Virus record (IMG/VR): IMGVR_UViG_3300009529_000051
Span: 1 to 22,800 of that record
Direction: 5' to 3' (one strand)
Source: a virus
DNA length: 22,800 bases
Below the pieces are notes generated by a model. That model saw nothing but the letters and a program-made list of their open reading frames with translations. It did not search any database and was not told where the DNA came from. Made by a program: the position numbers and the translations under genes. This document shows positions 1,563 to 20,123 of the stretch, one piece after another (within the stretch, counting starts at the first letter, position 1; each line of letters begins with the position of its first letter).

Positions 1563-1990
1563 CTTTTCCACGCCCCTTCAATCAGTCCTCGTGCCTCGCT
1601 CAGCAGGCTATCTATCTTGTCCTTCATCTTCTCGAAAGCGGGGTGCAGGAATGGCTTACCAGGCACGAAGGGCCGGACAAGTCTCCTTCTAATTGCGTGG
1701 ACATATCGCCCCACTTCTTGCTTATGCCCGAGTTCAACGAAGCTGGCATACTCCACCTTTGTACCCACCCTTGCCCATAAGGGGAGCGCCTCACTGCTTA
1801 CCTCGTGGGTTATGCTCGCCCTCAACCTTCCCGTGTCAACTGGAACATCTATCTTCGCCTGCCTCTCTACCAGCCTTCCTGCTTCACCCAAGAGCTTCTT
1901 CAGCGGCATATTCAGCATCTTATCGGGTTCCAGTTTCGCCGCAAGCTCCTGAACGCCTTTTACCATAATGCCGAGGTTAAGACCTGCCAT
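1559..1990 (-). CDS. HK97 gp10-like head-tail protein
   Basis: A 143-residue protein. The N-terminal helical region (KGVQELAAKLE) is followed by the hallmark of the HK97_gp10 family, a VPVDTGRLRASI segment near residues 50-61. After it come a beta segment (ARVGTKVEYASFVELGH) and the family's typical PGKPFLHPAFEK near the C-terminus. Members act in head completion or tail joining. The stop of the connector gene and this ATG share one base (TGATG), and AGGAGG lies about 9 nt upstream. It follows the connector and precedes the terminator candidate, which agrees with the call. Confidence 0.85.
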   Translation of the reverse strand: MAGLNLGIMVKGVQELAAKLEPDKMLNMPLKKLLGEAGRLVERQAKIDVPVDTGRLRASITHEVSSEALPLWARVGTKVEYASFVELGHKQEVGRYVHAIRRRLVRPFVPGKPFLHPAFEKMKDKIDSLLSEARGLIEGAWKR

Positions 1991-2820
1991 CAGATTGACT
2001 TCCTCCTGTAAGCGTCAACGATGAGCTTCACATCGGCATCTAGCCCCTTGTAGACCAGAAGCTCTCCGGTCTCCGGGCTGCCCACGGCATCCTGAAAACT
2101 GCTGTCTTTGCGCTTCCAGAGTCTCGCCGCCTGGATCAGCACCGCCTCCCGTATCGGCTCGGGGTATTCGTAGATGTAGATGTCTGTTGTCGCCACATGA
2201 GATGCCGCCGTTGTCCCGTTGACACCCCGTTCCAAGGTCAGGGTATCGGCATTGACAGCGCTGACATATATCTGCTCATCCTCGATCCGCAGGGTCATCC
2301 CGGCGCTGAACGTGTCGCCTTCCGTCGATGTCAGCGCCATTGATGTTGCTGCCGCGGTAATGTCCCCCGTCGGCACATTAACTCCGCTGTCCTTATACGG
2401 CGTTGCTGATTCACCGTCTCCGTAGCCCCATTTACCGGCTATCTGCACACCCTGCCTAATCCCAGAGGCAAAGCCGCCATAATCCGAATCAGAGCTTATC
2501 CTCACCCATGTCTTCGGGTACTTATTCAACGGGTAGAGGACATAATCCGTGGTCGCTAAGGTGCTGCCGTAAGTGCCATCACCGTCCTGATCGAGCTTGA
2601 AGCCGCTTGCATCTATACTCAGAAGGTCATCGAAGAACAGGGGCGTTGCCGAGCCCTCGAAGTAGCGTGTCTCCTCCTTGATATAGAAGGGTCGCTGACA
2701 CCACCTCTCAATGGCCCGGGAGGCGGCACCAAGCAGGGCCAGCAGGTCAGTATCCTCACCCGTCCCTTCGATACCCAGCCTGGATTTGAGTGTGTTCAGG
2801 TCAGCGTACAAGTTAGACAT
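1990..2820 (-). CDS. Head-tail connector (gp6-like) with an inserted beta domain
   Basis: A 276-residue protein. The first 50 residues (YADLNTLKSRLGI, then LLALLGAASRAIERWCQRPF) are typical of the helical start of phage head-tail connector/adaptor proteins. The C-terminal part (PIREAVLIQAARLWKRKDS, then a final helix KLIVDAYRR) is the matching last helical part of that fold. Between them is a beta-rich stretch, including an unusual insert of roughly residues 150-220 (ITAAATSMALTSTEG through TTDIYIYEYPEP) that resembles a small beta-barrel module found in other phage proteins. The protein should sit as a ring between portal and tail. Its start overlaps the end of the zinc-ribbon gene by 8 nt. 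Confidence 0.75.
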   Translation of the reverse strand: MSNLYADLNTLKSRLGIEGTGEDTDLLALLGAASRAIERWCQRPFYIKEETRYFEGSATPLFFDDLLSIDASGFKLDQDGDGTYGSTLATTDYVLYPLNKYPKTWVRISSDSDYGGFASGIRQGVQIAGKWGYGDGESATPYKDSGVNVPTGDITAAATSMALTSTEGDTFSAGMTLRIEDEQIYVSAVNADTLTLERGVNGTTAASHVATTDIYIYEYPEPIREAVLIQAARLWKRKDSSFQDAVGSPETGELLVYKGLDADVKLIVDAYRRKSI

Positions 2821-2989
2821 TTCGCCTCACCCTCAACTCGATTGCGGAACGCCAGCCGCAATATGTGCAGCCCAAAATACCGCGCGTATTCTTCACCAGT
2901 GGCCAACCGCAGCTAGGGCAATCGGTGCGCTCTTTCAGCGGGGCTTCCCTACTTCCCTTCTGCATCTCTAGAATCTGATCCCAGCCCAT
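2813..2989 (-). CDS. Zinc-ribbon mini-protein in the head-tail module
   Basis: A 58-residue protein that is easy to miss. It begins MGWDQILEMQKGSRE and contains two CxxC pairs (CPSCGW and CTYCGW) about 12 residues apart, a classic zinc-ribbon spacing. A purine-rich stretch (AGGAGAAAGAGG) precedes the ATG. It overlaps the connector start by 8 nt and begins 63 nt after the radical-SAM gene. Its function is unknown; small zinc ribbons near phage connectors may assist assembly or bind nucleic acid (inference). Confidence 0.75.
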   Translation of the reverse strand: MGWDQILEMQKGSREAPLKERTDCPSCGWPLVKNTRGILGCTYCGWRSAIELRVRRNV

Positions 2990-3052
2990 GCCTCTTTCTC
3001 CTCTTCTTGGCCCACTTCGCCTGACGGATCATCTTGTCCGATGTCGGGCCTT

Positions 3053-3847
3053 CTAGGAATCGGTACATTGGCTGCACAGGGGAAGGGTGTACCCCTCGCC
3101 CCTCACGTGCCTCATCTTGTATTCCTGCCTCGTTCTGCTGTTCCATATCTCCTCAATTGACTGGGTTTTCAAGTCCCCAAATATGACCTGCCCAAACGGG
3201 TCAAAGCAGCATAAGCTCACCCGCCCATCCCACATCACCGTCATCTCGTGCAAAGCTCGGCTACATGGCCTACCTTTAGACCGGCGATAAGGATATATCG
3301 CGCCGGCAAAGTTGTTGAACTGTCCCAGCCAGGGTGTCTTGAAAGTGTGGAGGAACCTGTCAATTTCCTTCGCATCGATTACAGGGAAATTGACCATGTA
3401 GGCCACCACAGTCATCCCCAGCATTTCCATGCGGTGCACCTTACCCACAACCTCCTCATAATCATCCAGCCTCATAAGATTCTTTCGTGTCTCCGGCGAT
3501 GCCGCATTCACCGATACCCAGAGTTCCAACTTCTCCATATCCCTCAGTGCATCAATGTCATCGTCTGTCAAGCGATTGCCATTAGTGAATATCCGTATCA
3601 CTGCCTCAGGCATCGCTTCTCGCGCCAACTTTATGCGTTCGATTATCCGGCCATCGCAGAACGGCTCGCCAGTGAGCATCGGAATAAAAAACTTCAAATT
3701 CAACCCCGCTGCCTCGTTGATGATTTTCTCGTATAATTCCTGTGACATCGTGCCCCGCCCCTCTATCTTGTCATGCGGGCAGAAGACGCATTTTGCATTA
3801 CAGATATTTGTCGTCTCCACCTGCAAGACGGACAACTCAGATCGCAT
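3053..3847 (-). CDS. Radical SAM enzyme with SPASM-like C-terminal cysteines
   Basis: A 264-residue protein. Residues 16-23 (CNAKCVFC) give the CxxxCxxC motif that binds the catalytic [4Fe-4S] cluster and S-adenosylmethionine. TGEP at 59-62 matches the usual GGEP motif that contacts SAM, and RIFTNGN at 85-91 fits the barrel strand that follows. The C-terminus has further cysteines (C195, C213, C214, C258, C261) in an arrangement like SPASM/twitch domains, which bind auxiliary clusters and act on peptides, proteins or sugars. The ATG overlaps the preceding methyltransferase-glycosyltransferase gene by 11 nt and has GAGGGGAG 5 nt upstream, so the two are translationally coupled. A radical-SAM enzyme between capsid and connector genes is unusual. 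The substrate is unknown; a virion protein or glycan is the best guess from context. Confidence 0.88.
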   Translation of the reverse strand: MRSELSVLQVETTNICNAKCVFCPHDKIEGRGTMSQELYEKIINEAAGLNLKFFIPMLTGEPFCDGRIIERIKLAREAMPEAVIRIFTNGNRLTDDDIDALRDMEKLELWVSVNAASPETRKNLMRLDDYEEVVGKVHRMEMLGMTVVAYMVNFPVIDAKEIDRFLHTFKTPWLGQFNNFAGAIYPYRRSKGRPCSRALHEMTVMWDGRVSLCCFDPFGQVIFGDLKTQSIEEIWNSRTRQEYKMRHVRGEGYTLPLCSQCTDS

Positions 3848-5237
3848 CAGCTCTCCCCTCTTTCTCCTTGTCCACGAAGAACCCAGCCCACGGCTCCTCG
3901 GTCCAGGGATACGGCCCCTTCATCGCCCAGGACCAGAAGTGACTGTGACCCCTCTGGTATTCCCCGAAGTGGCCGCAGAGCACGCTCGGGTCGGCGTATA
4001 TCTTGAACCCCGCCTCCTGCGCCTTCCGGCAGAAATAAAAGTCCTCCCCGGCTTTGGAACCCTCATCGCATTTGAACCACGGTTCCTCCAGAGTTTCGAA
4101 TACCCGTCTGTTGACCAACAAACACCCACAACTCACGCCGTCGCACTCCAGAAGCTGATTCCCTTGAGGTAGGCACACGGCTGGCGGTGCTTCCCTCAAT
4201 GTCTCCCTGTGCTGCATCAGATACTCGCCCACTTCATTGCAAAGAGGCTGGTAGTAATGCCCCTTGCCCTCCTCCCAGCAGTATTTGTAGACCATCGGTA
4301 TCGGCTCGCCGGTCTTCTTGAATATGATCCCGCTCACAATGTCCACGTTCCACCTCAAAAGGTGCTCCAAAGTCTGCGGCGGAAAGGCTTGGTCATCGTC
4401 CATAAAGAACAGCCAGTCCTTTCGGATTTGCTTGACAATCTTATTCCTCGCCAAGTCCACCGGGTATCCATCGCAGGTCGTGAGTATTGTCCCCTGCGGG
4501 GCAGAGAGGTTCATCAAGGATCGGGTGAAGTATGTGCTCGTCTGCCCCCGGCTCGGCACTGCCAGTTGGACCCCCTGCGTCTTCGCCCCCTTCTGGAAGT
4601 CCCCGTTATTTCTCCTTACGAGCCCCGCCTTCTCGCACCACTCGATGATCTTCGTCGAGTAATCGTAGTGCATCGGAAACAAGTCCTGCTGCCAGAAGTT
4701 CGACCGCTCGTATAGGAACCCGCCGTCTTTGAGACAACCGGCGATGTCCTTCAGCATCTTCGGCAATTCATCAGGGTGAATATGCTCTAGAGTGTCAATC
4801 GCCACCACGATGTCGTAGTCCCTCAAACCCCTCAGGGATTTGACGCTCTTTATGTCCAACAGCCGGTCTGCAAACCTCTGCTTGGCGAAGGCAGTCAGTT
4901 TATCGTTGATGTCGCAGTAGGTCACATCGTTCCCATTCAGCGCGAGGGCGATGCACAAGCTGCCGATGCCTGCCCCTATCTCCAGTATCTTCATGCCCCG
5001 GTAATGGAGCAGGGGGTGTACCCTTTGCCGGAACTCCTCCGTGGCATTCCACGAAACGAGTTCATACAGGTAAAGATCGGTTTCCTCGTAGAACCGCCTC
5101 ACGTCCTCCGGCGTCTCGTGGGGCTTGCGTCTCCATTCCGCCGCCATCTCATAGGGCGTGTAAGCCTTCACCCGTTCTTGGACTTCCTCTATTTTTTTGT
5201 TAAGGTGCCTTGCGAGTTCCCTTATGTCCCCTTCCAT
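3837..5237 (-). CDS. Methyltransferase-glycosyltransferase fusion protein
   Basis: A 466-residue protein with two enzymatic halves. Residues 78-215 form a class I SAM-dependent methyltransferase: motif I LEIGAGIG at 85-92, an acidic CDIN after the second strand at 108-111, and DTLEHIHPDELP at 148-159, as in small-molecule or sugar methyltransferases. From residue 222 a second domain starts (VQLAVPSRGQTSTYFTRSL), typical of the first strand and helix of GT-A glycosyltransferases. It has a metal-binding DDD at 280-282 within FFMDDDQAFP, and GEDFYFCRKA at 397-406, the usual acidic motif near the acceptor site. His423 may be a late metal ligand. The first 75 residues are helical. AAAGGAGGA lies just upstream of the ATG. 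The gene follows the decoration-like gene after a structured spacer and overlaps the radical-SAM gene. It probably glycosylates and methylates a phage component, but the donor and acceptor cannot be told. Confidence 0.85.
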   Translation of the reverse strand: MEGDIRELARHLNKKIEEVQERVKAYTPYEMAAEWRRKPHETPEDVRRFYEETDLYLYELVSWNATEEFRQRVHPLLHYRGMKILEIGAGIGSLCIALALNGNDVTYCDINDKLTAFAKQRFADRLLDIKSVKSLRGLRDYDIVVAIDTLEHIHPDELPKMLKDIAGCLKDGGFLYERSNFWQQDLFPMHYDYSTKIIEWCEKAGLVRRNNGDFQKGAKTQGVQLAVPSRGQTSTYFTRSLMNLSAPQGTILTTCDGYPVDLARNKIVKQIRKDWLFFMDDDQAFPPQTLEHLLRWNVDIVSGIIFKKTGEPIPMVYKYCWEEGKGHYYQPLCNEVGEYLMQHRETLREAPPAVCLPQGNQLLECDGVSCGCLLVNRRVFETLEEPWFKCDEGSKAGEDFYFCRKAQEAGFKIYADPSVLCGHFGEYQRGHSHFWSWAMKGPYPWTEEPWAGFFVDKEKEGRADAI

Positions 5238-5305: not shown

Positions 5306-5325
5306 GCTGCCGTCTAGACGGCAGC
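5306..5325 (-). terminator. Perfect 20-bp palindrome at the end of the capsid/decoration genes
   Basis: The sequence GCTGCCGTCTAGACGGCAGC is its own reverse complement. The stop codon TAG of the decoration-like gene lies in its centre. As RNA it forms a 7-8 bp stem with a 4-6 base loop. No U run follows (CTAAAGGGG comes next), so it is not a standard intrinsic terminator. It more likely protects the upstream mRNA or acts as a partial terminator or processing point between capsid and enzyme genes. Confidence 0.55.
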
Positions 5326-5706
5326 GAACCGAGGATTGAACCTCACATTGGATGCCGAAACCGGGTTAACTGTTCCGGCTGCTGGGGTGATTTCCACCCT
5401 CAGATAGCGGTACCCCGCCGTCATGTTCTCCCCCTTACACTCCACCGTCGCTATCTGGTCAGTCGCGGTGTTGCTGGAAATGGTGGTCGTGGCCAGATAG
5501 GTATTGGAGAAGGTGCTGTTGTCCGTGCTTTCGGCTATCACACAGGTGACATCTCCAAGGTACTGCGTCGCAGCCGCCTGCTGGATAACGGCCATGAAGT
5601 TGTTGAATTTCGCCATGTCCACTCCAGTGCCAGCCTTCTCCGCAGCGGTGATCTCCTGTGGCGGTATGCCTACCGTTACTTTCAGGTTCTCAGAGCCTTT
5701 ATGCAT
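5314..5706 (-). CDS. Decoration-like head protein
   Basis: About 130 residues, beta-rich. Two ATGs compete: the one at 5712 sits directly on the GAGGAGG ribosome site, whereas the one at 5706 has 7 nt spacing and is chosen. The N-terminal part (KVTVGIPPQEITAAEK) is followed by a helix (MAKFNNFMAVIQQAAATQYLG) and a C-terminal beta domain (residues ~50-130) with ESTDNSTFSN and GYRYLRVEITP. Similar motifs occur at the end of the tail-tube-like protein at 68-1150, suggesting a shared surface domain. The position directly after the major capsid gene is typical for a capsid decoration protein. No family can be named with certainty. Confidence 0.6.
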   Translation of the reverse strand: MHKGSENLKVTVGIPPQEITAAEKAGTGVDMAKFNNFMAVIQQAAATQYLGDVTCVIAESTDNSTFSNTYLATTTISSNTATDQIATVECKGENMTAGYRYLRVEITPAAGTVNPVSASNVRFNPRFAAV

Positions 5707-5718
5707 TGTCATTCCTCC

Positions 5719-6855
5719 TCAGTCTCCACCGTTGGTGGTGCTATGCAGCGTCACAAACGGGGAAAGTGTTGAGCCGTTTGCCGGCGTGAAGGCCGAATCG
5801 ACCCACGGCTGCCCGTCCACCCGCTTGACGAACCTCCACGCGGTTTCGTCGGTGGTGAACCGAGCATGGATGCTGGACTGCACGTTCAGCGATGACCTCT
5901 CGCCGATGAGGTAGTAGGAAAGGTCGGCAAGGATAAGGTCGCCGGCAGTCCCCAGCGCCTTGCATTTCTCGGTGAAGACCAGGGGGCGACCGAGAAGGGT
6001 CGCAGGCGGAGCAGATGCGGCGCCCTGGTTGAACGGCAGCCATGTCAGGGTTGTGCTGGCAAGAGGAATCAACTGCGCCAGTATGCTCGGGTTTGCCAGC
6101 CATATCGCCCGGCCCATGCTCTGAGGGTACAATCGCCGATAGACATTCGCCAGGTCAGCGATTGCAATGGTGTTGGCTGCACTCCGGTTGACGGAAAGTA
6201 GCGCACCCGAGTTCAGGATACCCAGCGGCTTGCCAACCCCGTTGCCGTTGATGAACGCATCGTCCTCATACCATGCCAAGGCTTCTGCGAACATCCGGGT
6301 CAACAGGGCATCCAGGCCCACGGCGTTGTCAGCCAGAAGCTCATCCGAGGCGTAGGTATAGCCAGTCAGCTTTTTGGCGATCAACTTCACCTGCCCGAAT
6401 GTCGGCTCCTTGACTGTCTTGGTGCCGGCCTCTTCCGTCCAGTATGCCACTATCCCACCATAGACGCTGGAAGCATGCGAGGTGTCCTTGATCTTGGGGA
6501 TAAGCAGCGTGTCAGAGGTCATCGGGATCACCGTTGCCCCGTTGGGCCGGATCACCGCAGACTCGATCGCCCGGAGAAGTATCTGGTTGGAAAAAATCTC
6601 CGGCACCGTGAAGCCCCCGGCGCTGTCCGTGCCCTCTGAAAGACCAGCCTTCAGTCGGGCATCCTGCGGGTTGTATTTCACCGCAGCCAACCACTCCCCA
6701 AAGGTCTTGAATGCGCCGGGCTGCTCATCTGGTCCACCGTCTCCCCCCGGCGTGAATCGCTGCTCGATCTTGTTCAGGCCAACCTTCTCGATGTAGGCTT
6801 CCAGCACAGCATCGATGCTGGCCTTTTGCTCATCAGTCAAAGCTATTTCACCCAT
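5719..6855 (-). CDS. Major capsid protein, HK97 family
   Basis: A 378-residue protein. The first ~70 residues are charged and helical (ALTDEQKASIDAVLEAYIEKVGL), as in the scaffolding delta domain removed by the prohead protease. The mature part starts around TDSAGGFTVPEIFSNQIL, a hallmark of the family. It continues with a TVIPMTSDTLLIPKI strand pair and an E-loop/spine region containing AYWTEEAGTKTVKEPTF. A conserved LASDELL-like segment (YTYASDELLADN) and NGNGVGKPLGIL follow. The end contains the usual RRVDGQPW-like segment. The ATG at 6855 has AGGAGGT 8-9 nt upstream. It follows the protease gene, which is the standard order. Confidence 0.95.
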   Translation of the reverse strand: MGEIALTDEQKASIDAVLEAYIEKVGLNKIEQRFTPGGDGGPDEQPGAFKTFGEWLAAVKYNPQDARLKAGLSEGTDSAGGFTVPEIFSNQILLRAIESAVIRPNGATVIPMTSDTLLIPKIKDTSHASSVYGGIVAYWTEEAGTKTVKEPTFGQVKLIAKKLTGYTYASDELLADNAVGLDALLTRMFAEALAWYEDDAFINGNGVGKPLGILNSGALLSVNRSAANTIAIADLANVYRRLYPQSMGRAIWLANPSILAQLIPLASTTLTWLPFNQGAASAPPATLLGRPLVFTEKCKALGTAGDLILADLSYYLIGERSSLNVQSSIHARFTTDETAWRFVKRVDGQPWVDSAFTPANGSTLSPFVTLHSTTNGGD

Positions 6856-6868
6856 GTTTCTTTACCTC

Positions 6869-8062
6869 CTAGTGTTTGCCCAACATTTCCGTGATACGTT
6901 GGGCTGCATAGACTGTGAGGTTTAGATTTGCCCTAAAGCTATCTTCCTCACTTGGCTCTTTGGCGCTATCTTCCTTCCTGGCATCCAGGACTGCGCCTGC
7001 TATGTCATCGGGGATGTCGCCCCCCGTTAAGCGCATAATCTCCCGAACGATGTCCCACATCAGTTCTTTATTCTCATCGTTCAGATCGCCGGCCTCTATG
7101 AGGCTCTTGGCATAGTCAAAGGCATCGCCTATCTCGGCCTGCGAAATCTCTTTCGGATGCGGTGTGATGGTATTGGCATTATTCGTTTCCATATCCATAG
7201 CCTCCTGTCCTGATCCGGGCCTTTCGGCCCTTCTCATTTCACCGCCGCACTTTGGGCATTCAATATCGCGGCAATGCTTCTCGCTTTCCATGCTGTAGCC
7301 ACACTTGATGCACTCGCACTGATATGTCTCCTGCTTTTCGTGCTCCTTCACCCACTCCCTGGCGCTCTCCATCGTCCAGCCGTACTTGTCCTCTTTGGAG
7401 AACAGATAGGTAGTGTTCTTTTTACACTCGCCGCAGTAGAGGGCCTTTATGCCCTTCTCCTTTGAGATGTCGATGGTGCGAATTCTGTGTCCCTCGTGCT
7501 TGCCCTCCTCCCCGGGGACAGGCACCCTGAAATAGTCCTCCGTCTCCTCGGGCTTGGTGATCTGCTCGAACTCCTTGATGGTTATCACATCCTGCTCCCG
7601 TGCCTGGACAAGGGCATCGGGATTTGAAGGCACCGGCACTGCAGAAAGTTCCAACAACTCCTGCTTGGTGTAAGTGCGCCTCGGCTCTTTCTCGCCGTCC
7701 CCCTCCTCAATGGCATCGAAGTCCGGCATGAAGCCCACCGAGGTTGCGTGCAGAAAGCCGCCCTTGTAGAGCTTGTAAATGGTATCTGCGAATTCGTAGA
7801 TGTCCCGGTCGGCAAACTCGATTTGGAACTTGAGCTTGTTGTCATCCACCCAGACCTTTTGAGCCTTGCCTATTGGCGGCTGGTCATAGCGATGAGCCCA
7901 CATGAATACAGGGTTCTTCTTGAAGTTCTTGATATCCCAGCCGCTTGCCCGGATGACCTCGCCATCCCGATCCACGGTCTCGGTGGAGCCGATAAATTCC
8001 AGCACCCGGTCTGAAACCTCCTTGACCTCGCAGGACACTACTTTTCTGATTAGCTCTGTCAT
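6869..8062 (-). CDS. Prohead protease (HK97/U35-like) with a zinc-ribbon insert
   Basis: A 397-residue protein started at 8062, where GGAGGT is well placed; a longer in-frame start at 8107 is unsupported. Residues 1-160 form the HK97-type protease: GSTETVDRDGEVI near 25-37, catalytic His57 in FMWAHRYD, Ser108 in HATSVGFMP, and ELSAVPVPSNPDAL at 138-151. The family normally ends shortly after. Here an extra segment (200-275) carries cysteine pairs CGEC (210/213), CECIKC (249/251/254), C264 and CPKC (269/272), with YGWTMESAREWVKEHE between them. The last ~100 residues are acidic and helical and could act as scaffold. The enzyme matures the capsid; the insert may bind zinc and help contact the capsid protein or DNA (inference). 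Confidence 0.9.
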   Translation of the reverse strand: MTELIRKVVSCEVKEVSDRVLEFIGSTETVDRDGEVIRASGWDIKNFKKNPVFMWAHRYDQPPIGKAQKVWVDDNKLKFQIEFADRDIYEFADTIYKLYKGGFLHATSVGFMPDFDAIEEGDGEKEPRRTYTKQELLELSAVPVPSNPDALVQAREQDVITIKEFEQITKPEETEDYFRVPVPGEEGKHEGHRIRTIDISKEKGIKALYCGECKKNTTYLFSKEDKYGWTMESAREWVKEHEKQETYQCECIKCGYSMESEKHCRDIECPKCGGEMRRAERPGSGQEAMDMETNNANTITPHPKEISQAEIGDAFDYAKSLIEAGDLNDENKELMWDIVREIMRLTGGDIPDDIAGAVLDARKEDSAKEPSEEDSFRANLNLTVYAAQRITEMLGKH

Positions 8063-10156: not shown

Positions 10157-11415
10157 AGCAGGAAGTCTCCCGTTTTGGGCTTCTCCAGAAGCTCTGTTAA
10201 ACTCCACACCATCGCATCAAGACGGTTCGGGGACAATCTGCTCTCCCCCGGTATCCACTGACACAGCTCATCCTCAAGATAAGGGAACTCACCGACAAGG
10301 TGCACCCGGCCCTGCTCAAACATCGCCACGACAGGTTCCGCCCTCACTGCCTTACCCCTGGAGGCGTGCACCATCTTGAAACGTATGTTCTGCTTCCGTG
10401 ACCGCGCCGCTTGGATAAGAGTGCTCTCAACCATATCGCCACCGAAATTGGCCTCCGCCACTACACAGTCGGCATCATTGTGGTTACTGGTAGTCAATAC
10501 CGCTTCAGCCCATCCTTCTGGGGAAGCCTTCAAACTCCTGTCCTCAAGCACATAGCCATGCCACTGACCGTCAATCTTTGCGATACCGGCAGTTACGATT
10601 CCGCACTCAGTCACACCGCCCGGCGGGTCGACTCCGACAACAACGCGGCTCAGATTCGGGTGGCTCGTAGTCCTACTCCTTGAAATCAAGCCCCGCGTCC
10701 ACAATGCGCCAGGGGCCTCATCAATGTCCTCTGCCAATATCTCCTGCCGATAAGACACTCGAGACATATCCTCCGTAATGTCCACCAGTGCCTCTTCGGA
10801 AATATACGGATTATCGTGGCTGGTGAAATGGAATGCCTGCCACCGACCTGTATTGTCTTCCTTCGCCTTGGCAAACATCTTGGCCGCATGACGGGGGTCT
10901 CGAGCTTTCGATACCGAACGGCTATGTAATGATGGCGGCGTGTAGATGAATACTGCGTCACCGTTGTTGTCCAGCAGCATCGGTGCCCCCACCGCATCCC
11001 AGGCATCCTCATCGCATAGTTGCCACTCATCGATTATCAGGAGGTCGGCATAATCCCCTCTAAGTGTGTCCGCATTCCACGCGGTCTTGGCGCGTATCCT
11101 GTTCTCGGTCCCTGCGCGTTCTATGATGTGCAGCGTCTCGTTCTTGTAGAATATCCCTGCCTCCAAGGGCTCGGTCAGTGACCTCTTGACCTCACGCCAG
11201 AAGGTATCAATCTGCTCCGCTGTTGGGGTGGCATAAAGGATTCGCCTGCCAGCCAGAAACGCCTTCACCGCCAGGATAGATACGCCTACCGTCTTTCCAA
11301 AGCGCCGCCCGGCTCTTAAGATGCGCCGGGGTGCGCCGCTGTCAATAAGCTCGACCTGCCTAGCATGGGGTTCACGCAACCGGATAATATATTCGGTTTT
11401 AGTCGCCGTCACCAT
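10153..11415 (-). CDS. terL: Terminase large subunit (TerL)
   Basis: A 420-residue packaging motor. The ATPase has a Walker A-like AGRRFGKT at 35-42, a Walker B LLIIDE at 125-130, and a coupling motif candidate (YTPPS at 159-162). The nuclease domain (RNase H fold) shows D263 in VVGVDPPGG, E321 in VAEANFGGD, and D400 in NRLDAMVW, the usual three acidic metal ligands. The small terminase precedes it with a 17-nt overlap, and the portal gene follows with an ATGA overlap. Length and motif spacing suit the family. Confidence 0.95.
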   Translation of the reverse strand: MVTATKTEYIIRLREPHARQVELIDSGAPRRILRAGRRFGKTVGVSILAVKAFLAGRRILYATPTAEQIDTFWREVKRSLTEPLEAGIFYKNETLHIIERAGTENRIRAKTAWNADTLRGDYADLLIIDEWQLCDEDAWDAVGAPMLLDNNGDAVFIYTPPSLHSRSVSKARDPRHAAKMFAKAKEDNTGRWQAFHFTSHDNPYISEEALVDITEDMSRVSYRQEILAEDIDEAPGALWTRGLISRSRTTSHPNLSRVVVGVDPPGGVTECGIVTAGIAKIDGQWHGYVLEDRSLKASPEGWAEAVLTTSNHNDADCVVAEANFGGDMVESTLIQAARSRKQNIRFKMVHASRGKAVRAEPVVAMFEQGRVHLVGEFPYLEDELCQWIPGESRLSPNRLDAMVWSLTELLEKPKTGDFLL

Positions 11416-11647
11416 ATATCACCTTAAGAACTATGGCCTTATCACCTTGGCCAGTGTGCTCGACCTTTTGGCTGGCCTTACCGATATGCTGGTCTATCAG
11501 GTATTTCGCCGCACCGACCTTGATTTGCTCATCCATTGAATCAAGAGCAGCAATCAAGACCCTCACTGCCTTCTTGTAACTCTTGGCAATGAGTTTCTTT
11601 TCCTCTTCCCTTCTCGGCCTCCGGCCAGAGTTGCCATTTCCTGCCAT
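11399..11647 (-). CDS. Small terminase subunit-like protein
   Basis: An 82-residue protein with an AAGGA ribosome site close to the ATG. It has a basic, charged start (GNSGRRPRREEEKKL), a helical middle (AVRVLIAALDSMDEQIKVGAAKYLIDQH) and an ending of the type IGKASQKVEHTG, which is common near the C-terminus of phage small terminases. It sits immediately upstream of and overlaps the large terminase. It is shorter than most small terminases and lacks a clear N-terminal HTH, so it may be a reduced form. Confidence 0.7.
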   Translation of the reverse strand: MAGNGNSGRRPRREEEKKLIAKSYKKAVRVLIAALDSMDEQIKVGAAKYLIDQHIGKASQKVEHTGQGDKAIVLKVIYGDGD

Positions 11648-11671
11648 TTTCCTTATCCGCCCTCGTTGATT

Positions 11672-11725
11672 CTAGGCGACCTCTTTCAAGATAAGCATAT
11701 CAACTATTTTGCTCATTTCTGCCAT
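11672..11725 (-). CDS. Tiny 17-codon ORF in the gap before the small terminase
   Basis: An ORF beginning MAEMSKIVDMLIL and ending EVA fills the 79-nt gap between the BppU-like gene and the small terminase. A GAGAGCGGG purine run precedes its ATG. It could be a short coupled peptide or chance. No function can be given. Confidence 0.25.
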   Translation of the reverse strand: MAEMSKIVDMLILKEVA

Positions 11726-11726
11726 T

Positions 11727-12047
11727 TTACCCGCTCTCCACCACCTCAAGATCGCCGGATTCAAAGCTCTCATATTTCGTATCGGTCACAAACGCCTCGA
11801 CCTCGTACTTGAAACTGCCCACCGTGTCGAAGTCGCCACTCACCACTGTGTAATGGCATGTCCCGTCAGCGGCAACATCTATCGTGCAAGTTCCATCGAC
11901 CAAAAGGCGGGTAGGTTTATGCTCTTCCCATACTTTGAATTTTATCGTATAGCTGGTCAGGTCAAAGGCATTGCCATCCTTATCCGTGCAGGTGAAGTCT
12001 AGGTTAAATCCGTAATCGCCCTTTGGGATCGTTATCGTATCTGACAT
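11727..12047 (-). CDS. BppU-N-like beta-sandwich structural protein
   Basis: A 106-residue beta protein. It begins SDTITIPKGDYGFNLDFTCTDKDGNAFDL, followed by TSYTIKFKVWE, and ends with a GSFKYEVEAFVTD strand. This order (input field, DLTGxT-like turn, then KFKVW and an FxYEVE strand) matches the Ig-like N-terminal domain of phage baseplate upper protein and related proteins. Its ATG overlaps the stop of the LamG gene by one base (TAATG). It probably works with the three preceding genes as part of a surface fibre complex. Confidence 0.55.
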   Translation of the reverse strand: MSDTITIPKGDYGFNLDFTCTDKDGNAFDLTSYTIKFKVWEEHKPTRLLVDGTCTIDVAADGTCHYTVVSGDFDTVGSFKYEVEAFVTDTKYESFESGDLEVVESG

Positions 12048-12898
12048 TATGCTGTCTTCGCCTCCACCGCAATCGCCCTATCATGCAGGGCTACACTTCT
12101 CGAAATATATTGCCGCCACCGGGTCCAGTTAAAGCGGTTCAGCACATTGGCAGGACTGAGAGCGGCATCATATAATCTTGGCTCGTCTATCGAGCCCTTG
12201 CACCTCTGATAGCCCCACGCATCTGCTATTAAGAATTTCGCCGTTCCTGTTGGCAAGCTACCAGTTTCTATTTCTTTCCTGTCTTCAACCCCATTGACAT
12301 AAAGAATCAAATTGCTCCCATTATATGTGGCCACTACATGATTCCAGTCGTCCACCGTCAAGTTCACTGTCCCCCAATAGGTAAAAGCCCCACAAGTGAA
12401 TCCGATCCTCCTATAACTCCCCGATGAGGCAATTTGATAATTCAGCGTGTACGGGTGCACCCCTGCTGACCTTCTGCCCATAATGCAATAGACCCCATCG
12501 GCAACCGCTGATGGGCGTACCCACGCCTCAAGCGTGACGTTTGCCACGTTCATCGCCGAATCATAGCCGCAATCGATATAATCATTGTCCCCATCGAAGC
12601 TATAGCAACCGAATCTCAGCGCTGTTGCCCCATATACCGTGCCGTGATTCGAGCCATGTGCATCGTTGCCATTCTGGTTCAGCTTCCACCAGGAAATCAG
12701 GTTCGCCGTTGGCCCTTCGACTTCCGTTATCCTTTGCGCCCCCCTCACGGCGGCTTCAATGGCCCGAGAATAGAGATTCACCGCCACCCCAATCGCCTTG
12801 CGGACGATTTCTGCGCTTTCGCTGGTCCAGTTCAGTATCCGGCCCACACCGTAGTACTGAGACCCGCCATTCAGATATGTCTGGTAATCGATTATCAT
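12047..12898 (-). CDS. LamG/concanavalin-like domain protein, putative adhesin
   Basis: A 283-residue protein. The first ~65 residues are helical with a basic stretch. From about residue 68 (LISWWKLNQNGNDAHGSNHGTVYGA) it matches LamG-3 / concanavalin A-like modules. FDGDNDYIDCGYDSAMN is the usual first signature, VTLEAWVRPS the core strand, WNHVVATYNGSNLILYVNG the hallmark motif, and GSIDEPRLYDAALSPANV the typical end. Such domains bind sugars and are frequent in phage fibres and surface proteins. The start overlaps the preceding stop (ATGA). It sits just after the fibre-like gene, so a role in host attachment or virion surface binding is likely. Confidence 0.8.
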   Translation of the reverse strand: MIIDYQTYLNGGSQYYGVGRILNWTSESAEIVRKAIGVAVNLYSRAIEAAVRGAQRITEVEGPTANLISWWKLNQNGNDAHGSNHGTVYGATALRFGCYSFDGDNDYIDCGYDSAMNVANVTLEAWVRPSAVADGVYCIMGRRSAGVHPYTLNYQIASSGSYRRIGFTCGAFTYWGTVNLTVDDWNHVVATYNGSNLILYVNGVEDRKEIETGSLPTGTAKFLIADAWGYQRCKGSIDEPRLYDAALSPANVLNRFNWTRWRQYISRSVALHDRAIAVEAKTA

Positions 12899-14259: not shown

Positions 14260-15419
14260 TTCACTACCAATCCCCCAAAGACTACTGAGTGAATGCCTTG
14301 TTCAGACAGAATCGGCATCGGTTGGGCCACCCCTGACAATGTATAATCCGTATAGCAACACATATCGTAGGCCAATTGATAGCCACCTGTCAGTGTGGCG
14401 GGCCAAGGGTCGCCATAGCTTTGACCCGACTTGTACCAGAGCTGGTTGGCATCCCCATCGTCCCGCATGAAAGTCATCGCGGCATCAACCCAGGCCAGGT
14501 TCAAATAGTTCTGTGCCGTAAAACTGGGTGCAGTCGAGAAGTTGGCTGTCAAGCCACCCGACTGTGGACCCGTCAACTCGTCTGAATTAGCATTCGTGAC
14601 CTTGCCGGCGTCGGAAGTCCTGTAAACGTGCATCTTGAAGTGCTCGCCTGCGTCAAAGCCACTGAGTATCTGGGCTCCCATAAAGTTCCCTGTGCCTGCT
14701 CCAGTGGGGTTAGTGTCGGCTTTGGAACCGAAGATATAGTCGGCTGCTATACCCAGGCTGAAGCTGCCACTGCCCGTGTTCCCGAAGGTCGGGCCAATCA
14801 CCACGGGATAAGTTGCAACATCCAGCCACTTCTGGTCGAAAAGCATTATCAAGAGGCCCGCTTGAATCTCCCAGCTACCCCAAATCCAGTCACCCCTGGC
14901 ATCGGTAGCTCTTGGTCTGAGAATCTGAAATGCTTTGCCAAATCCGTAAGTAGCATTCCAGCCAAGACTGCTGCTCTTGACCGCTATGGAGTTCACCATT
15001 TCGGGTATCGTGTCGTGCCGGAACTCGTCCTCACGCCATAGCTCATGGTCAGGGTGTAGAGATTGCTGTATCCTAAACTTCAACCCCGGAGCCTCAATGC
15101 GGAACTCTATCCTGCCGCCAAATCCCACTTTCCTCTTTGGCAGGACTATCTCCATCTCCAAAGCCCCCTGCCATAACCACTCGTCAGGGGGCTTGGTGTA
15201 GAACCCTACCTCCATGTCCGAGGTCTGCCACAAGATTTTCTCACCCTCTACCTTCGGCAGTGCCTTCTTGTCAATGGGTAGCCATATCTTCATGCCAGTG
15301 AGTTTGTGCCACTTGGTCATGTAGATGTGCGGCTGGAAATCTGCGGCTTTTAGGTCGCCAATCTCCACCTCGTCGCCGGCAAGGTCCAGCTTGTATGTCT
15401 TTTCGCCTATCAGTTCCAT
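14256..15419 (-). CDS. Putative virion surface/appendage protein
   Basis: About 387 residues, first gene after the late promoter. I choose the ATG at 15419 (MELIGEKTYKLDLAGDEVEI); the frame is open back to a GTG at 15455, and neither start has a clear ribosome site. The N-terminal half is rich in Trp and charged residues (DEWLWQGALEMEIVL, GRIEFRIEAPGLKFRI). A strand rich in Val-Val-Ile-Gly-Pro (YPVVIGPTFGN) then leads to a Gly/Ser-rich second half with GSGSFSLGIAADY and DAGEHFKMHVYRTSD. The second half resembles beta-sheet domains of phage or cell-surface proteins. It lies upstream of the fibre-like and LamG genes in the same transcript. I cannot name the family. Confidence 0.6.
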   Translation of the reverse strand: MELIGEKTYKLDLAGDEVEIGDLKAADFQPHIYMTKWHKLTGMKIWLPIDKKALPKVEGEKILWQTSDMEVGFYTKPPDEWLWQGALEMEIVLPKRKVGFGGRIEFRIEAPGLKFRIQQSLHPDHELWREDEFRHDTIPEMVNSIAVKSSSLGWNATYGFGKAFQILRPRATDARGDWIWGSWEIQAGLLIMLFDQKWLDVATYPVVIGPTFGNTGSGSFSLGIAADYIFGSKADTNPTGAGTGNFMGAQILSGFDAGEHFKMHVYRTSDAGKVTNANSDELTGPQSGGLTANFSTAPSFTAQNYLNLAWVDAAMTFMRDDGDANQLWYKSGQSYGDPWPATLTGGYQLAYDMCCYTDYTLSGVAQPMPILSEQGIHSVVFGGLVVK

Positions 15420-15522
15420 GACAAACAAAAAACGACCGAAGTGGATTCGATACACGAGGCATCACAGCATCCCTGCTTCGACCGTTTACAGGTCACTAAG
15501 GCTATTCAGTTGTCAAACATAT

Positions 15523-15551
15523 ATTCTACACCCACAAAAAGGGTTTGTCAA
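15523..15551 (-). promoter_or_regulatory. Consensus sigma70 promoter for the late/structural genes
   Basis: On the minus strand, TTGACA (15546-15551) and TAGAAT (15523-15528) are separated by exactly 17 bp. The -35 box overlaps the TGA stop of the last early gene. Transcription should start near 15516 and give a ~97-nt leader before the first structural gene. The spacer holds a short inverted repeat (ACCC...GGGT), a possible operator. Confidence 0.8.
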
Positions 15552-15724
15552 GCCCTCTGTTTCAACGCCTCCTCAATCAGCCTGGCGAACTCCTGCAAAG
15601 ATAGCGTCTTGATGTGCCACCGACCATCGCGCCGATCAGTGATAATCAGCTTGCCATCGCGCAGCACCCCTAGCTTCTCGGTGCCGCAGCAGTCACAATA
15701 TACTGGGGTGTCCCTCTCACTCAT
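15548..15724 (-). CDS. Small CxCC-containing early protein
   Basis: A 58-residue protein starting MSERDTPVYCDCCGTEK. It has a Cys cluster (C10, C12, C13), a short beta segment (LRDGKLIITDRRDGRWHI), and a final amphipathic helix (LSLQEFARLIEEALKQ). The ATG overlaps the previous stop as ATGA. Its TGA stop lies inside the -35 box of the late promoter, so it ends the early transcript. A regulatory role is possible but cannot be shown. Confidence 0.7.
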   Translation of the reverse strand: MSERDTPVYCDCCGTEKLGVLRDGKLIITDRRDGRWHIKTLSLQEFARLIEEALKQRA

Positions 15725-15966
15725 CCTGCTTCCCCGTCAGCTCCCAGTCCATCAGTCACCTCATACCCTTGACAGTAGCCCTTGAATCTCCCAGCTTTCT
15801 GAAGGTTTGCCTGCTTAACCTTCTTGTCCTCCTCGATGGCCTCCATGATGGCCTCGATTAACTCGGGGAAGTCTACTTCAAGAATCTGATACTCTGGTAG
15901 GTAGAAACATTTATATTCATCGAACAAACTCTTAATCCTATCCTTTAGGCTCATCGGCTGCTTCAT
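15721..15966 (-). CDS. Small acidic hypothetical protein
   Basis: An 81-residue protein. The ATG at 15966 is chosen over a longer GTG start at 15996 because GGAGGAGG sits just upstream. It begins MKQPMSLKDRIKSLFDEYK, continues with an acidic helix (PELIEAIMEAIEEDKKVKQ) and ends GADGEAG. The segment PMSLKDRI is also encoded by the 25-bp repeat shared with the short ORF upstream. Function unknown. Confidence 0.6.
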   Translation of the reverse strand: MKQPMSLKDRIKSLFDEYKCFYLPEYQILEVDFPELIEAIMEAIEEDKKVKQANLQKAGRFKGYCQGYEVTDGLGADGEAG

Positions 15967-16037
15967 AACCCTACCTCCTCCTTGAATTCCAGCCACTCAG
16001 GTTGCATCTCCCTAATCCTATCCTTTAGGCTCATCGG
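15933..16037 (-). repeat. 25-bp direct repeat, two copies 80 bp apart
   Basis: Identical 25-bp copies lie at 15933-15957 and 16013-16037. Both encode the start MSLKDRI in frame with the small genes described. The duplication therefore includes a start codon, and the following sequences have diverged. Confidence 0.9.
15963..16034 (-). CDS. Coupled 23-residue ORF created by a 25-bp duplication
   Basis: The peptide is MSLKDRIREMQPEWLEFKEE plus three residues. It has a strong ribosome site (GAGGAGGT, 5 nt before the ATG), overlaps the previous gene's end, and shares its stop with the next gene's start (ATGA). Its first 7 residues match codons 5-11 of the downstream gene (MSLKDRI). It may be a leader peptide for translational coupling or a remnant of the duplicated gene start. 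Confidence 0.5.
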   Translation of the reverse strand: MSLKDRIREMQPEWLEFKEEVGL

Positions 16038-16200
16038 TTACCTCCTCTGGGCGCTGAATTATCCCCTTACCATCACATACACGACACGATTCAAAGACAC
16101 TATTGCTAACCCAGCGATCATAATCACCACCTCTCATGAAATAGCCACCACTAACTACGCCAGCGCCATTACACACGGGGCATAACTGCCATTCACTCAT
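16018..16200 (-). CDS. DnaJ-type zinc-finger mini-protein
   Basis: A 60-residue protein with two CxxCxGxG motifs: CPVCNGAG near residues 7-14 and CRVCDGKG near 39-46. This pair forms one zinc site of the DnaJ central domain. There is no J domain. The start overlaps the preceding gene by 8 nt (ATGAGTGA) and a GAAGGAGGT site lies upstream. Such short zinc proteins are common in phages; a role in protein folding or nucleic-acid binding is possible. Confidence 0.75.
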   Translation of the reverse strand: MSEWQLCPVCNGAGVVSGGYFMRGGDYDRWVSNSVFESCRVCDGKGIIQRPEEVTDEPKG

Positions 16201-16342
16201 CAGTCACCTCCTTCTTCGGAATCCAGTATCCGCAGTTGTATTCCAAGCTGAACCATATACACCATGCTTCCAATTCACCCTCCTCTATCGAATCAGCCTC
16301 GAACGGGTAGAACTTCCCATCATGCAGTAGGGCAAATCTCAT
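16193..16342 (-). CDS. Small Trp/Tyr-rich hypothetical protein
   Basis: A 49-residue protein starting MRFALLHDGKFYPFEADSIE, with GELEAWCIWFSLEYNCGYWIP in the second half, unusually rich in aromatic residues. A GGGAGA site 2 nt upstream of the ATG and overlaps at both ends (23 nt with the nuclease gene, 8 nt with the zinc-finger gene) fill an otherwise non-coding gap. I do not recognise a family. Confidence 0.65.
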   Translation of the reverse strand: MRFALLHDGKFYPFEADSIEEGELEAWCIWFSLEYNCGYWIPKKEVTDE

Positions 16343-16694
16343 TCTCTCCCAACATTTCTACTATTTCGTCCCAGTTCTCAGGCTTCCATAATTTCACCTC
16401 TATAATCCCCCCGACCCGTAGCTCAGCTGCCGCCGCCACCATCATCAAATCCATTAGCCACTCCACCTGTGCATTACTCGGCTTGCCTTTATCACTCTTA
16501 AGCTCAAATATCAGTAGCTTCCCATTCCGTACGGCAATATAATCAGGAAAGCCTTGATCCCCCGACATGGCAGTCCGCCAGCCATACTTTCCCTTCTTCA
16601 AGGTCCTGGCCGGCCTGAAATGACACCACCGCCAATGATAGATTTCAAGAAGCTCTTCCACCTGCTGAGAGAACTGCTGCTCGGTTATTTGCAT
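16320..16694 (-). CDS. VRR-NUC domain nuclease
   Basis: About 124 residues. The ATG at 16694 (MQITEQQFSQQVEELLEIY) is preferred because a GAGGGGAG site precedes it; a GTG at 16712 would overlap the helicase stop. The core of the VRR-NUC fold (PD-(D/E)xK superfamily) is visible: a helix with the early Glu, GFPDYIAVRNGKL with D51, LLIFELKSDKG with E64 and K66, and the usual NAQVEWL helix with Q76. Small VRR-NUC proteins in phages resemble Holliday-junction or structure-specific nucleases. It follows the helicase gene directly, so a role in replication or recombination is likely. Confidence 0.88.
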   Translation of the reverse strand: MQITEQQFSQQVEELLEIYHWRWCHFRPARTLKKGKYGWRTAMSGDQGFPDYIAVRNGKLLIFELKSDKGKPSNAQVEWLMDLMMVAAAAELRVGGIIEVKLWKPENWDEIVEMLGENEICPTA

Positions 16695-16708
16695 CGTGGC
16701 AACTCCCC

Positions 16709-18034
16709 TCACGCCTGTCCCGCTATCCTGCCTATTGAGGCATTGTAGTAGAGGACCCGCTTCCCAACAGGCCCCTCTTTGTGCTTGGCTACAATGACAC
16801 GCAGACTGTTCTCAGGATCATCCCTCTCTTCCTCTCGCATCTCCTTTCGGTCAATATAGTACTGTTCGCGATAGAGTAGCAACACAACATCAGCCACCGC
16901 TTCTAATCCCCCTGAATACCTCAAATCGGACAATTTGGGCACCGGGGGGTTGCGGCCCTCTACCTGCCGGTTTAATTGAACCAAAGCTAACATCGGTACA
17001 TCGCATGTCTGGGCTATGGCTTTCAATGCACGAGCTACTGAGTGGTACCGCTTCTCTTCGGAATCTGATTTGTCCCCCGCTAGATCGATGTAGTCAAATA
17101 TCACCAAGCCCACTTCCACCTCTAATTTTAGCCGCATCAAGCGGGCCTGTACCTGGCTTGTCAGGATGGCCCCTGTATCGTCTACATAGATCGGCAGCTT
17201 ACTTAGCACTTCATAGGAATCCCAAAGACGGTGATATTCCTCATCATCTGGATGCTCCTTGCCACGCAACGCATATCGGTTTATGCCCGCTTCCGCAAAT
17301 GTCAGCCTCTCTAAGAGGGAGCCACCGGTTTGCTCAAGAGAGAAGATCGCTACATGGCGACCTTGTTTCGCCACTTCTCGGCCAATGGTCAATGCTAGCT
17401 GCGTCTTGCCCATCCCCGGTCTACCCGCAACCAGGTGCAACCTGCCAGGGACTAGCCCATCAATTGCCCGATCCAGGTCTTTGAGTCCGGTAGAGATTCC
17501 GCGCTCACCGCCACGCATCAGCCAATCTTGGAAGACCATGCTGTGAGCATCTGCAATCTCGGCAAGCGGAACGAGGCCCTGTCGTTTAGTCTGCTCTCCC
17601 AGCCCAATCAATAGGCGGATGGCATCACCCAACGCCTCAGTAGTGTCCCTAGCCTCATACCCTATCTTCGCTATCTGTCCCGCAGCCTGAATCAGCCTCC
17701 GTGAGAAGCCCAGATTATGCACGATATGGGCATAGGAATCAATGTGTACTGAGGTCGGGGTTATCGCAGTGAGATGTATCAGGTAAGCAGTCCCCTCTAC
17801 CTGCTCCAATTTGTTGCAACGTTGCAATTCCTGCGCAACGGTGATTTGGTTTATCGTCTCATCGCGTTCACTGAGAGTTAGACACGCCTCGTATATCCAG
17901 GCGTTCTTTTCCCGGTAGAAGTCTTCAGGTTGAAGGAAGTCGGCTATTTCGTGGATGCAGAATTCGTCTATCAGAAGAGAGCCGATGACTGCCTGCTCGG
18001 CCTCCAAATCGTACGGGACTGGCTTATCGTTCAT
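16709..18034 (-). CDS. dnaB: Replicative DNA helicase, DnaB family
   Basis: A 441-residue protein. The first 110 residues form the DnaB N-terminal domain (PYDLEAEQAVIGSLLID, PEDFYREKNAWIYEA). The RecA-like part follows a linker: Walker A GRPGMGKT at 204-211, FSLEQTGGSLLERL (motif H1a region), Walker B VIFDYI at 311-316, and VQLNRQVEGR at 352-361, the usual motif that senses nucleotide. LRYSGGLEAVADVVLLLYRE is the typical segment before the C-terminal strands, and VAKHKEGPVG is the late signature. GGAG lies 5 nt upstream of the ATG. It unwinds DNA ahead of the replication fork, probably loaded by the adjacent initiator-like protein. Length is normal. Confidence 0.95.
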   Translation of the reverse strand: MNDKPVPYDLEAEQAVIGSLLIDEFCIHEIADFLQPEDFYREKNAWIYEACLTLSERDETINQITVAQELQRCNKLEQVEGTAYLIHLTAITPTSVHIDSYAHIVHNLGFSRRLIQAAGQIAKIGYEARDTTEALGDAIRLLIGLGEQTKRQGLVPLAEIADAHSMVFQDWLMRGGERGISTGLKDLDRAIDGLVPGRLHLVAGRPGMGKTQLALTIGREVAKQGRHVAIFSLEQTGGSLLERLTFAEAGINRYALRGKEHPDDEEYHRLWDSYEVLSKLPIYVDDTGAILTSQVQARLMRLKLEVEVGLVIFDYIDLAGDKSDSEEKRYHSVARALKAIAQTCDVPMLALVQLNRQVEGRNPPVPKLSDLRYSGGLEAVADVVLLLYREQYYIDRKEMREEERDDPENSLRVIVAKHKEGPVGKRVLYYNASIGRIAGQA

Positions 18035-18047
18035 GTCAACTCCATCA

Positions 18048-19676: not shown

Positions 19677-20123
19677 TTATGTCGAGTTAGCTGCCTCTAA
19701 CCGCAACTCATCCCTCACCTGCATCAGTAATATACCAAGTCTATCCTGCCCCTGACCTTTTACATATCCCCAATATTTGTCCCAAGGGCTATCTTCATGT
19801 AGGGCAGCATCTTCGGTAGCCAACAACTTCTTCCCGAGATCACGGTGTTGCTGGAACTTCGTTCTAAGCCCCATGAGCATTATCTCTTCCTTGACTGTTT
19901 CCCAGTCAGGTCTTAGGGTGACATGGTATCCTGCGAACTTCGCCTCTTTGGGAGTCTCACAGCGTAGAATCATCTTCTGCTCGCTAAGGTCTCTGGACTT
20001 CTGTGCTTGATAATAATGCTCTACTGTCGGCCAAATCTTACCGTCGATGAAGACAGGGGAGCGGTAAAAATTTGAACAGTACCCGTGTTTATCGTGTCGT
20101 GTCCAGAAAAATATATCGTCCAT
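19677..20123 (-). CDS. NADAR-family (YbiA-like) protein
   Basis: A 148-residue protein with the family signature almost end to end: YCSNFYRSPVFIDGKIWPTVEHYYQAQK (residues 15-42, shown as separate motifs GYCSNFY and WPTVEHYYQAQK), LRTKFQQHRDLGKKLLAT in the middle, and SPWDKYWG at 112-119 with DRLG at 127-130 near the end. NADAR proteins are N-glycosidases that cleave riboflavin-pathway intermediates; some also remove ADP-ribose from guanine, acting as antitoxins to DarT-like toxins. AAAGGGAGGT precedes the ATG. It sits among small early genes, typical for host-takeover or anti-defence factors. Its target in this phage is unknown. Confidence 0.88.
   Translation of the reverse strand: MDDIFFWTRHDKHGYCSNFYRSPVFIDGKIWPTVEHYYQAQKSRDLSEQKMILRCETPKEAKFAGYHVTLRPDWETVKEEIMLMGLRTKFQQHRDLGKKLLATEDAALHEDSPWDKYWGYVKGQGQDRLGILLMQVRDELRLEAANST

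Follow-up and report, generated by a model that had tools for sequence, protein, structure and literature searches.

To our knowledge, experimental proof of virion glycosylation is confined to mycobacteriophages. In Cluster J mycobacteriophages, 8-10 genes separate the capsid gene from the connector genes; they include genes for several glycosyltransferases (GTs), SAM-methyltransferases (MTs) and a kinase, and gp17 of the Cluster J phage LittleE is an N-terminal methyltransferase joined to a GT (PMC3706429, 2013). Cluster O phages have an O-methyltransferase and GTs among their structural genes; these enzymes are made in infected cells and are absent from virions, and capsid peptides of Corndog are under-represented (PMC4351075). 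Glycosylation of virions in mycobacteriophages with GTs and MTs, with glycans on both capsid and tail tube, was published in 2023, according to two later papers (PMC12619734, PMC11600133). Pelagimyophage GTs have been interpreted as modifying host LPS, and cassettes with radical-SAM genes occur in the same variable region (PMC7029224). Among radical-SAM enzymes, BtrN belongs to the one-cluster twitch type; the substrate that it oxidises is 2-deoxy-scyllo-inosamine, and four Cys ligands hold its auxiliary cluster (PMC9012708).

The DNA analysed here, 22.8 kb in full (the window; IMG/VR record IMGVR_UViG_3300009529_000051), is a tailed-phage fragment from environmental DNA with all recognised genes on the minus strand, in the order terminase, portal, protease, capsid, decoration-like, MT-GT fusion, radical-SAM, zinc-ribbon, head-tail adaptor, neck, tail terminator and major tail protein. 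An earlier, sequence-only reading of it had assumed that siphoviruses normally encode only structural proteins at the place of the two enzyme genes, which Cluster J (PMC3706429) and Cluster O (PMC4351075) contradict. The enzymes of this cassette probably put sugars onto the virion and tailor them chemically. With a probability of roughly 0.6, the two genes form a virion-glycosylation cassette acting on a protein of the capsid operon, a reading that joins what rests on data (domain identities, intact motifs, operon coupling, recurrent position, co-mobility, and replacement by other glycan enzymes) to an acceptor and a chemistry that we infer.

Two enzyme genes in the head module

The genes, domains and motifs concerned are as follows.

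5719..6855, minus strand: HK97-fold major capsid protein, candidate acceptor (Phage_capsid E=2e-50)
5314..5712, minus strand: decoration-like virion protein, 132 aa, candidate acceptor (phrog_5707 and the C-terminal domain of major tail family phrog_9522)
3837..5237, minus strand: MT-GT fusion, 466 aa, class I methyltransferase N-terminal and GT-A glycosyltransferase C-terminal (Pfam/PHROG, homologues)
4710..5039, minus strand: methyltransferase domain core, aa 67-176, with motif LEIGAGIGSL and acidic loop D109 (Pfam, alignment)
3936..4583, minus strand: GT-A domain, aa 219-434, with DxD D280/D282, GED 397-399 and H423 (phrog_1574, Glycos_transf_2)
3053..3847, minus strand: radical-SAM enzyme with a twitch/SPASM-type auxiliary cluster domain, 264 aa (Pfam, PDB sequence and fold matches)
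3779..3802, minus strand: CxxxCxxC motif (C16, C20, C23) of the radical-SAM cluster (sequence; invariant in 10 homologues)
3065..3265, minus strand: auxiliary cluster cysteines C195, C213 (C214), C258 and C261 (alignment to BtrN)
2813..2989, minus strand: small zinc-ribbon protein, CPSC..CTYC, 58 aa (sequence)
1990..2820, minus strand: head-tail adaptor, first connector gene downstream of the cassette (phrog_442 E=8e-13)

The fusion and radical-SAM genes lie on the minus strand where the sequence-only reading had placed them, overlapping by 11 nt (3837-3847). Pfam and PHROG matches bear out its assignment of three enzyme types to two genes, and the neighbours identified in the same way agree with its location of the pair between the capsid/decoration genes and the zinc-ribbon/connector genes. 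ORFs of 55 aa that resemble the window zinc-ribbon occur in two related viral loci (L005, 2875-3042; L008, 4915-5082). An ORF at 2949-3146 was rejected as a gene because it overlaps both the radical-SAM gene and the zinc-ribbon ORF. No nucleotide-sugar synthesis gene was recognised in the 22.8-kb window.

Two genes elsewhere in the window deserve mention. The product of 19677-20123 (minus strand) is a NADAR/riboflavin-intermediate N-glycosidase family protein (TIGR02464, 114 bits). It has a second match, to an anti-phage NADAR family, which at 72 bits stays under the cut-off of that family; the gene may serve in counter-defence or be concerned with NAD/ADP-ribose. Beyond the terminase gene, 12047-12898 (minus strand) encodes a LamG/concanavalin-type lectin-domain protein, possibly an appendage.

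The MT part of the fusion matches Methyltransf_12 (E=1.4e-13, aa 85-175) and Methyltransf_23 (aa 67-176) in Pfam, and the GT part matches Glycos_transf_2 (E=1.3e-5, aa 263-317) and phrog_1574 (E=4e-17, aa 219-428). Full-length identity of fusion homologues to the window protein is 46-59%. Across an alignment of 11 fusion homologues, G88, G90 and G92 of LEIGAGIGSL are invariant and E86 and D109 nearly so; D280, D282, GED 397-399 (including E398 and D399) and H423 of the GT domain are likewise invariant. A strong AGGAGG ribosome-binding site stands directly upstream of the fusion start (AAAGGAGGAAAA-ATG). When the predicted structure was used for a fold search, methyltransferases dominated the matches; the GT domain matched ppGalNAc-T2 and B4GALNT1 with low full-length TM scores, from a model whose pTM is only 0.53. 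A search of 85k genomes with the fusion returned zero matches, so the two-domain fusion appears to be viral.

The radical-SAM protein matches the Pfam families Radical_SAM (E=2.8e-16) and SPASM (E=1.9e-14). Its best PDB match by sequence is BtrN (E=2.8e-24; the next is 2.6e-10), as is the best fold match of its predicted structure (4m7t, E=8.7e-14; pLDDT 88), followed by the peptide-acting SuiB, anSME and SkfB. In a profile alignment to BtrN (4m7s), window residues C195, C213, C258 and C261 align column by column to C169, C187, C232 and C235. Among 10 radical-SAM homologues, one of them a shortened row, C195, C213 and C214 are invariant and C258 and C261 nearly so. The extra cysteines earlier described as SPASM-like are present and conserved, but their pattern is that of a one-cluster twitch domain and not of a full two-cluster SPASM domain: only five cysteines lie past the core domain, short of the full two-cluster set of SPASM peptide maturases. 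Likeness to BtrN at the level of sequence and predicted fold does not fix the substrate of the window enzyme, and the twitch/SPASM group also includes peptide maturases. With their catalytic motifs intact and conserved, both window enzymes look active.

Relatives beside other capsids and in cells

Homologues of the fusion were sought with the fusion alone as query, blind to genomic position. They were found in the window's domain order at 12 other viral loci, all 12 among structural genes, and head-module placement, which the sequence-only reading had proposed to check in relatives, is conserved; the arrangement that it had named as counter-evidence, in which homologues would regularly adjoin genes for host-surface or nucleotide modification, did not turn up. 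The fusion lies downstream of a capsid gene in nine of the 12, in eight of which a decoration gene intervenes (L003, L004, L006, L007, L009, L010, L012 and L013). At L008, a capsid gene of another clade is 2.6 kb ahead of the fusion; the L005 sequence begins at the decoration gene; at L002 the fusion adjoins major tail genes rather than the capsid gene; and at L011, in a phage with an unrelated phrog_212 capsid, it stands behind connector-region genes.

A radical-SAM gene follows the fusion at L003-L007, L009 and L012, in most cases overlapping it (by 1-25 nt) or abutting it; at L004 two small ORFs separate the two. Six divergent relatives also have the two genes translationally coupled, so their association is not a chance one. 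No radical-SAM gene was found in the L010 contig sequence examined or in the whole L011 record, suggesting that the GT-MT protein is the core and the radical-SAM enzyme an optional accessory. Viral radical-SAM homologues came from an alignment-based search; a single-sequence search of viral contigs with the radical-SAM protein yielded no homologue. More distant radical-SAM matches (L030-L082) are 20-31% identical, many of them being other radical-SAM types, and at L031 a sugar-biosynthesis cluster surrounds such a gene. L012 has two additional GTs. The fusion at L008 (5170-6741) has an extra methyltransferase domain, giving two in tandem ahead of the GT. At L004, a product encoded between fusion and radical-SAM gene (11395-11808) resembles a cytidylyltransferase by eye (GKIHSGH motif) and has no Pfam match.

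Enzyme sets of other composition occupy similar positions. GT-MT fusions in reverse domain order stand beside other HK97-type and phrog_212 capsids (L014-L018 and L020), most of them between capsid/decoration and adaptor, and another follows the portal gene at L019; a search of phage isolates with the L016 protein gave no match. In the podovirus-like L026 and L027 (phrog_283 head protein), the order is capsid, decoration, radical-SAM (38-39% identical to the window enzyme) and a GT-Methyltransf_24 fusion, Methyltransf_24 being a methyltransferase family unrelated to that of the window. A GT-Methyltransf_24 fusion is also found downstream of the capsid gene at L130-L133, with an additional GT4 at L130. 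L130 also has two diverged major capsid genes in tandem (5668-7971), with 50% and 40% identity to the capsid of the window; behind them come a gene the size of a decoration gene and GTs. At L028 a phrog_1328 capsid gene is followed by genes for a PF01973 protein, a methyltransferase, a radical-SAM enzyme and small proteins; Maf flagellin glycosyltransferases belong to Pfam family PF01973. A Chloroflexota prophage has, directly after an SU10-type capsid gene, a GT 33% identical to that of the window. This prophage-like region with SU10-type capsid and GT (L200, G101:C30, ~14400-18500, and L201) also encodes a 3890-aa ORF. MW202711 has capsid, small gene, GT and tail tubular A in that order, Redno2 has GT, kinase, MT and further GTs downstream of its capsid gene, and T4-like cyanophages have GTs of the window family near baseplate genes.

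Replacement within a capsid clade is seen at L111, which lies inside the fusion-bearing clade of the capsid tree (support 100/99) and has a capsid 69% identical to that of the window. In the cassette position it has instead a GDP-mannose 4,6-dehydratase (E=1.6e-123) and a GT4-methyltransferase fusion, and its decoration protein has diverged to ~31% identity. Here the enzymes and the decoration protein changed jointly and the capsid was kept, a single event that is not proof. More generally, the decoration-like protein (5314-5712) goes with the fusion, and it has diverged where other enzymes stand in the fusion's place. L009 and L010, respectively, are 73% and 68% identical to the window in capsid, 60% and 50% in decoration protein and 59% and 58% in fusion, whereas their portals are only 21% and 27% identical; the protease of L010 aligns with that of the window over just 71 residues, and that of L009 cannot be aligned. 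By these identities the cassette is co-mobile with the capsid and decoration genes across unrelated portals.

Related decoration-type domains (phrog_5707/9522/427) form the decoration protein 5314-5712 and the C-terminus of the window's major tail protein (68-1171, aa 264-360), and one is inserted in the L009 head-tail adaptor (6846-7781, aa 48-141). This shared surface domain could be a common glycan acceptor. A Ser/Thr-rich C-terminal tail of the capsid protein was rejected as an acceptor signature because it is equally present in relatives that have no cassette.

The nearest cellular radical-SAM genes (L083-L087) are 42-45% identical and come from Chloroflexota or Dehalococcoidia MAGs; in a tree, the Chloroflexota genes group with the window-type phage enzymes (support 99/98). 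Directly upstream is a short gene, of Methyltransf_24 type in L083 (Pfam) and similar in L084 and L086, and near several of the five are epimerase, polysaccharide deacetylase or other polysaccharide genes. The closest cellular MT domains, with the same N-terminal helical extension, are also from Chloroflexota, where they are fused to the mycofactocin glycosyltransferase MftF beside MftE. One such Chloroflexota mycofactocin locus is L202 (8683-11675), in which MftF with its N-terminal methyltransferase domain adjoins MftE. The cellular relatives of the window enzymes, judged by similarity and gene neighbourhood, point to sugars. The hosts of the cassette-bearing phages are uncultured; that of the window phage may be a member of the Chloroflexota, which is a lead only.

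Proposed action and competing explanations

In the scheme that we favor, the following are our proposals: a virion protein as acceptor and its identity, the donor, the order of steps, the methyl and radical chemistry, and the benefit. Host metabolism would supply a nucleotide-sugar, from which the GT-A domain would move the sugar onto the decoration-like protein 5314-5712 or the capsid, the likeliest acceptors. The fused methyltransferase would O-methylate the transferred sugar, and the joining of the two domains could let capping occur during chain building. The BtrN-like radical-SAM enzyme would remove a hydrogen atom from one carbon of the sugar and so oxidise or epimerise it, whether the sugar is still part of the donor or already in the glycan. 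The gain for the phage may be stability, shielding, or adhesion to surfaces or particles. Modification of a virion component, which the sequence-only reading had already suggested, is the interpretation that we prefer. Weighing against it are the loci L002 and L011, where the fusion lies away from the capsid gene, the radical-SAM gene missing from some relatives, the cyanophage GTs near baseplate genes, and a window in which we recognised no gene for nucleotide-sugar synthesis.

The main rival explanation, which we consider unlikely, is that the enzymes alter a host surface polysaccharide (O-antigen or exopolysaccharide) late in infection, blocking superinfection or re-adsorption to debris, and that the genes merely ride the late operon. 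Its basis is that pelagimyophage cassettes with GT and radical-SAM genes have been read as LPS modification (PMC7029224), and it gains from the sugar and polysaccharide genes near the cellular radical-SAM relatives and from the cyanophage GT homologues near baseplate genes. Such islands, however, usually lie by tail-fibre or lysogeny genes, whereas the window pair is in the head module, with no tail-fibre or gtrAB-type partner recognised between capsid and connector. Enzymes of the window type follow capsid and decoration genes in several capsid lineages and travel with both across unrelated portals, and we recognised nothing in the cassettes that resembles a membrane or lipid-carrier protein such as GtrA, GtrB or a flippase.

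It is quite improbable, in our estimation, that the GT-MT protein glycosylates the virion while the radical-SAM enzyme acts on a peptide, modifying a side chain of the capsid, decoration or zinc-ribbon protein in a RiPP-like manner. The rank of SuiB, anSME and SkfB as next fold matches and the small zinc-ribbon ORF that follows in several genomes would fit such an action, but BtrN is the best match by both sequence and fold, there is only one auxiliary cluster, Pfam detected no precursor-recognition domain, and the partners of the radical-SAM homologues are MT, GT or sugar genes. It is very unlikely that the set makes a mycofactocin-like product, be it a small redox cofactor or a peptide. The MftF-fused cellular MT domains beside MftE are the argument for it; against it, the matches to MftC (28.7 bits against a cut-off of 265) and MftM (17.6 against 200) fall far short and MftF was unmatched, so that mycofactocin is a parallel rather than a system to which the set belongs, no MftA, MftB, MftD or MftE was recognised beside the window genes, and the capsid-side position would be unexplained. 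That the enzymes hypermodify phage DNA with sugars is hardly credible: DNA-modifying phage GTs are known (Pyle 2024, as cited in PMC12619734), but we recognised no gene for hydroxymethyl-pyrimidine or another base modification in the window, itself a fragment, and the usual place of DNA-modification genes is the early or replication module, not the late head module in which the window genes lie.

The window cassette and the related sets suggest that phage-encoded capsid-adjacent glycosylation is widespread, that it originated or was reassembled on several occasions from differing MT and GT folds, and that it can include a radical-SAM enzyme. We advance more tentatively the fuller picture, in which uncultivated tailed phages from several capsid lineages, with Chloroflexota as the hosts of some, would decorate their virions with O-methylated sugars altered by a phage radical-SAM enzyme, the enzyme sets being swapped together with the decoration protein. 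If true, radical chemistry would be used in building a virus particle, and glycan enzymes between capsid and connectors would be a genomic signature that predicts glycosylated virions in uncultivated phages. The choice of enzymes would also be linked to the decoration protein.

Comparison with known systems

The window has the marks of cassettes of the Cluster J and O type, namely intact GT-A motifs, a SAM-methyltransferase fused to a GT, and location in the head module. The Cluster J insert (Omega, LittleE, Redno2), which separates the major capsid gene from that of the head-tail connector, likewise contains GTs, methyltransferases and an MT-GT fusion, but has no radical-SAM enzyme and has several separate GTs and a kinase. 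The GT gp14 of Redno2 is homologous to that of the window (GT profile, 44 bits; tblastn, 4e-6). LittleE gp17 was rejected as a detectable homologue: it matches no window-family profile, and its shared MT-GT order is an architectural parallel only. Corndog (Cluster O) and Che8 (Freeman et al. 2023) share with the window GT and MT enzymes, those of Corndog being in the structural operon; unlike the window genes, the Corndog genes lie between portal and protease, the Che8 GTs lie at the far genome end, and neither phage has the radical-SAM enzyme. Among Cluster O and Che8 proteins, only Che8 gp108 gives a weak match (12 bits) to a window-family profile.

BtrN, an aminocyclitol dehydrogenase that acts on 2-deoxy-scyllo-inosamine in butirosin synthesis, and the window enzyme have in common CxxxCxxC and a single four-Cys auxiliary cluster with matching spacing, but they are 18% identical over the fold alignment and no antibiotic cluster surrounds the window gene. 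Mycofactocin synthesis (MftC, MftF, MftM) combines the same three activities, radical-SAM, GT and methyltransferase, and the cellular MT-MftF fusions share the N-terminal MT region. The Chloroflexota pairs (L083-L087) resemble the window in their radical-SAM enzyme and in the methyltransferase-like short gene ahead of it in most of the five, but they are chromosomal and not beside a capsid gene, and their methyltransferase is of the Methyltransf_24 family, as in L026 and L027.

The sequence-only reading had held the three-activity set to be undescribed. For GTs, MTs and the MT-GT fusion this does not stand, as they were known from Cluster J (PMC3706429); for the radical-SAM member it does, in that a partial literature search found no description of such an enzyme in a capsid-adjacent GT/MT cassette. 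What appears new relative to the known systems is the presence of a radical-SAM enzyme, the range of capsid lineages involved, and the swapping of enzymes together with the decoration protein.
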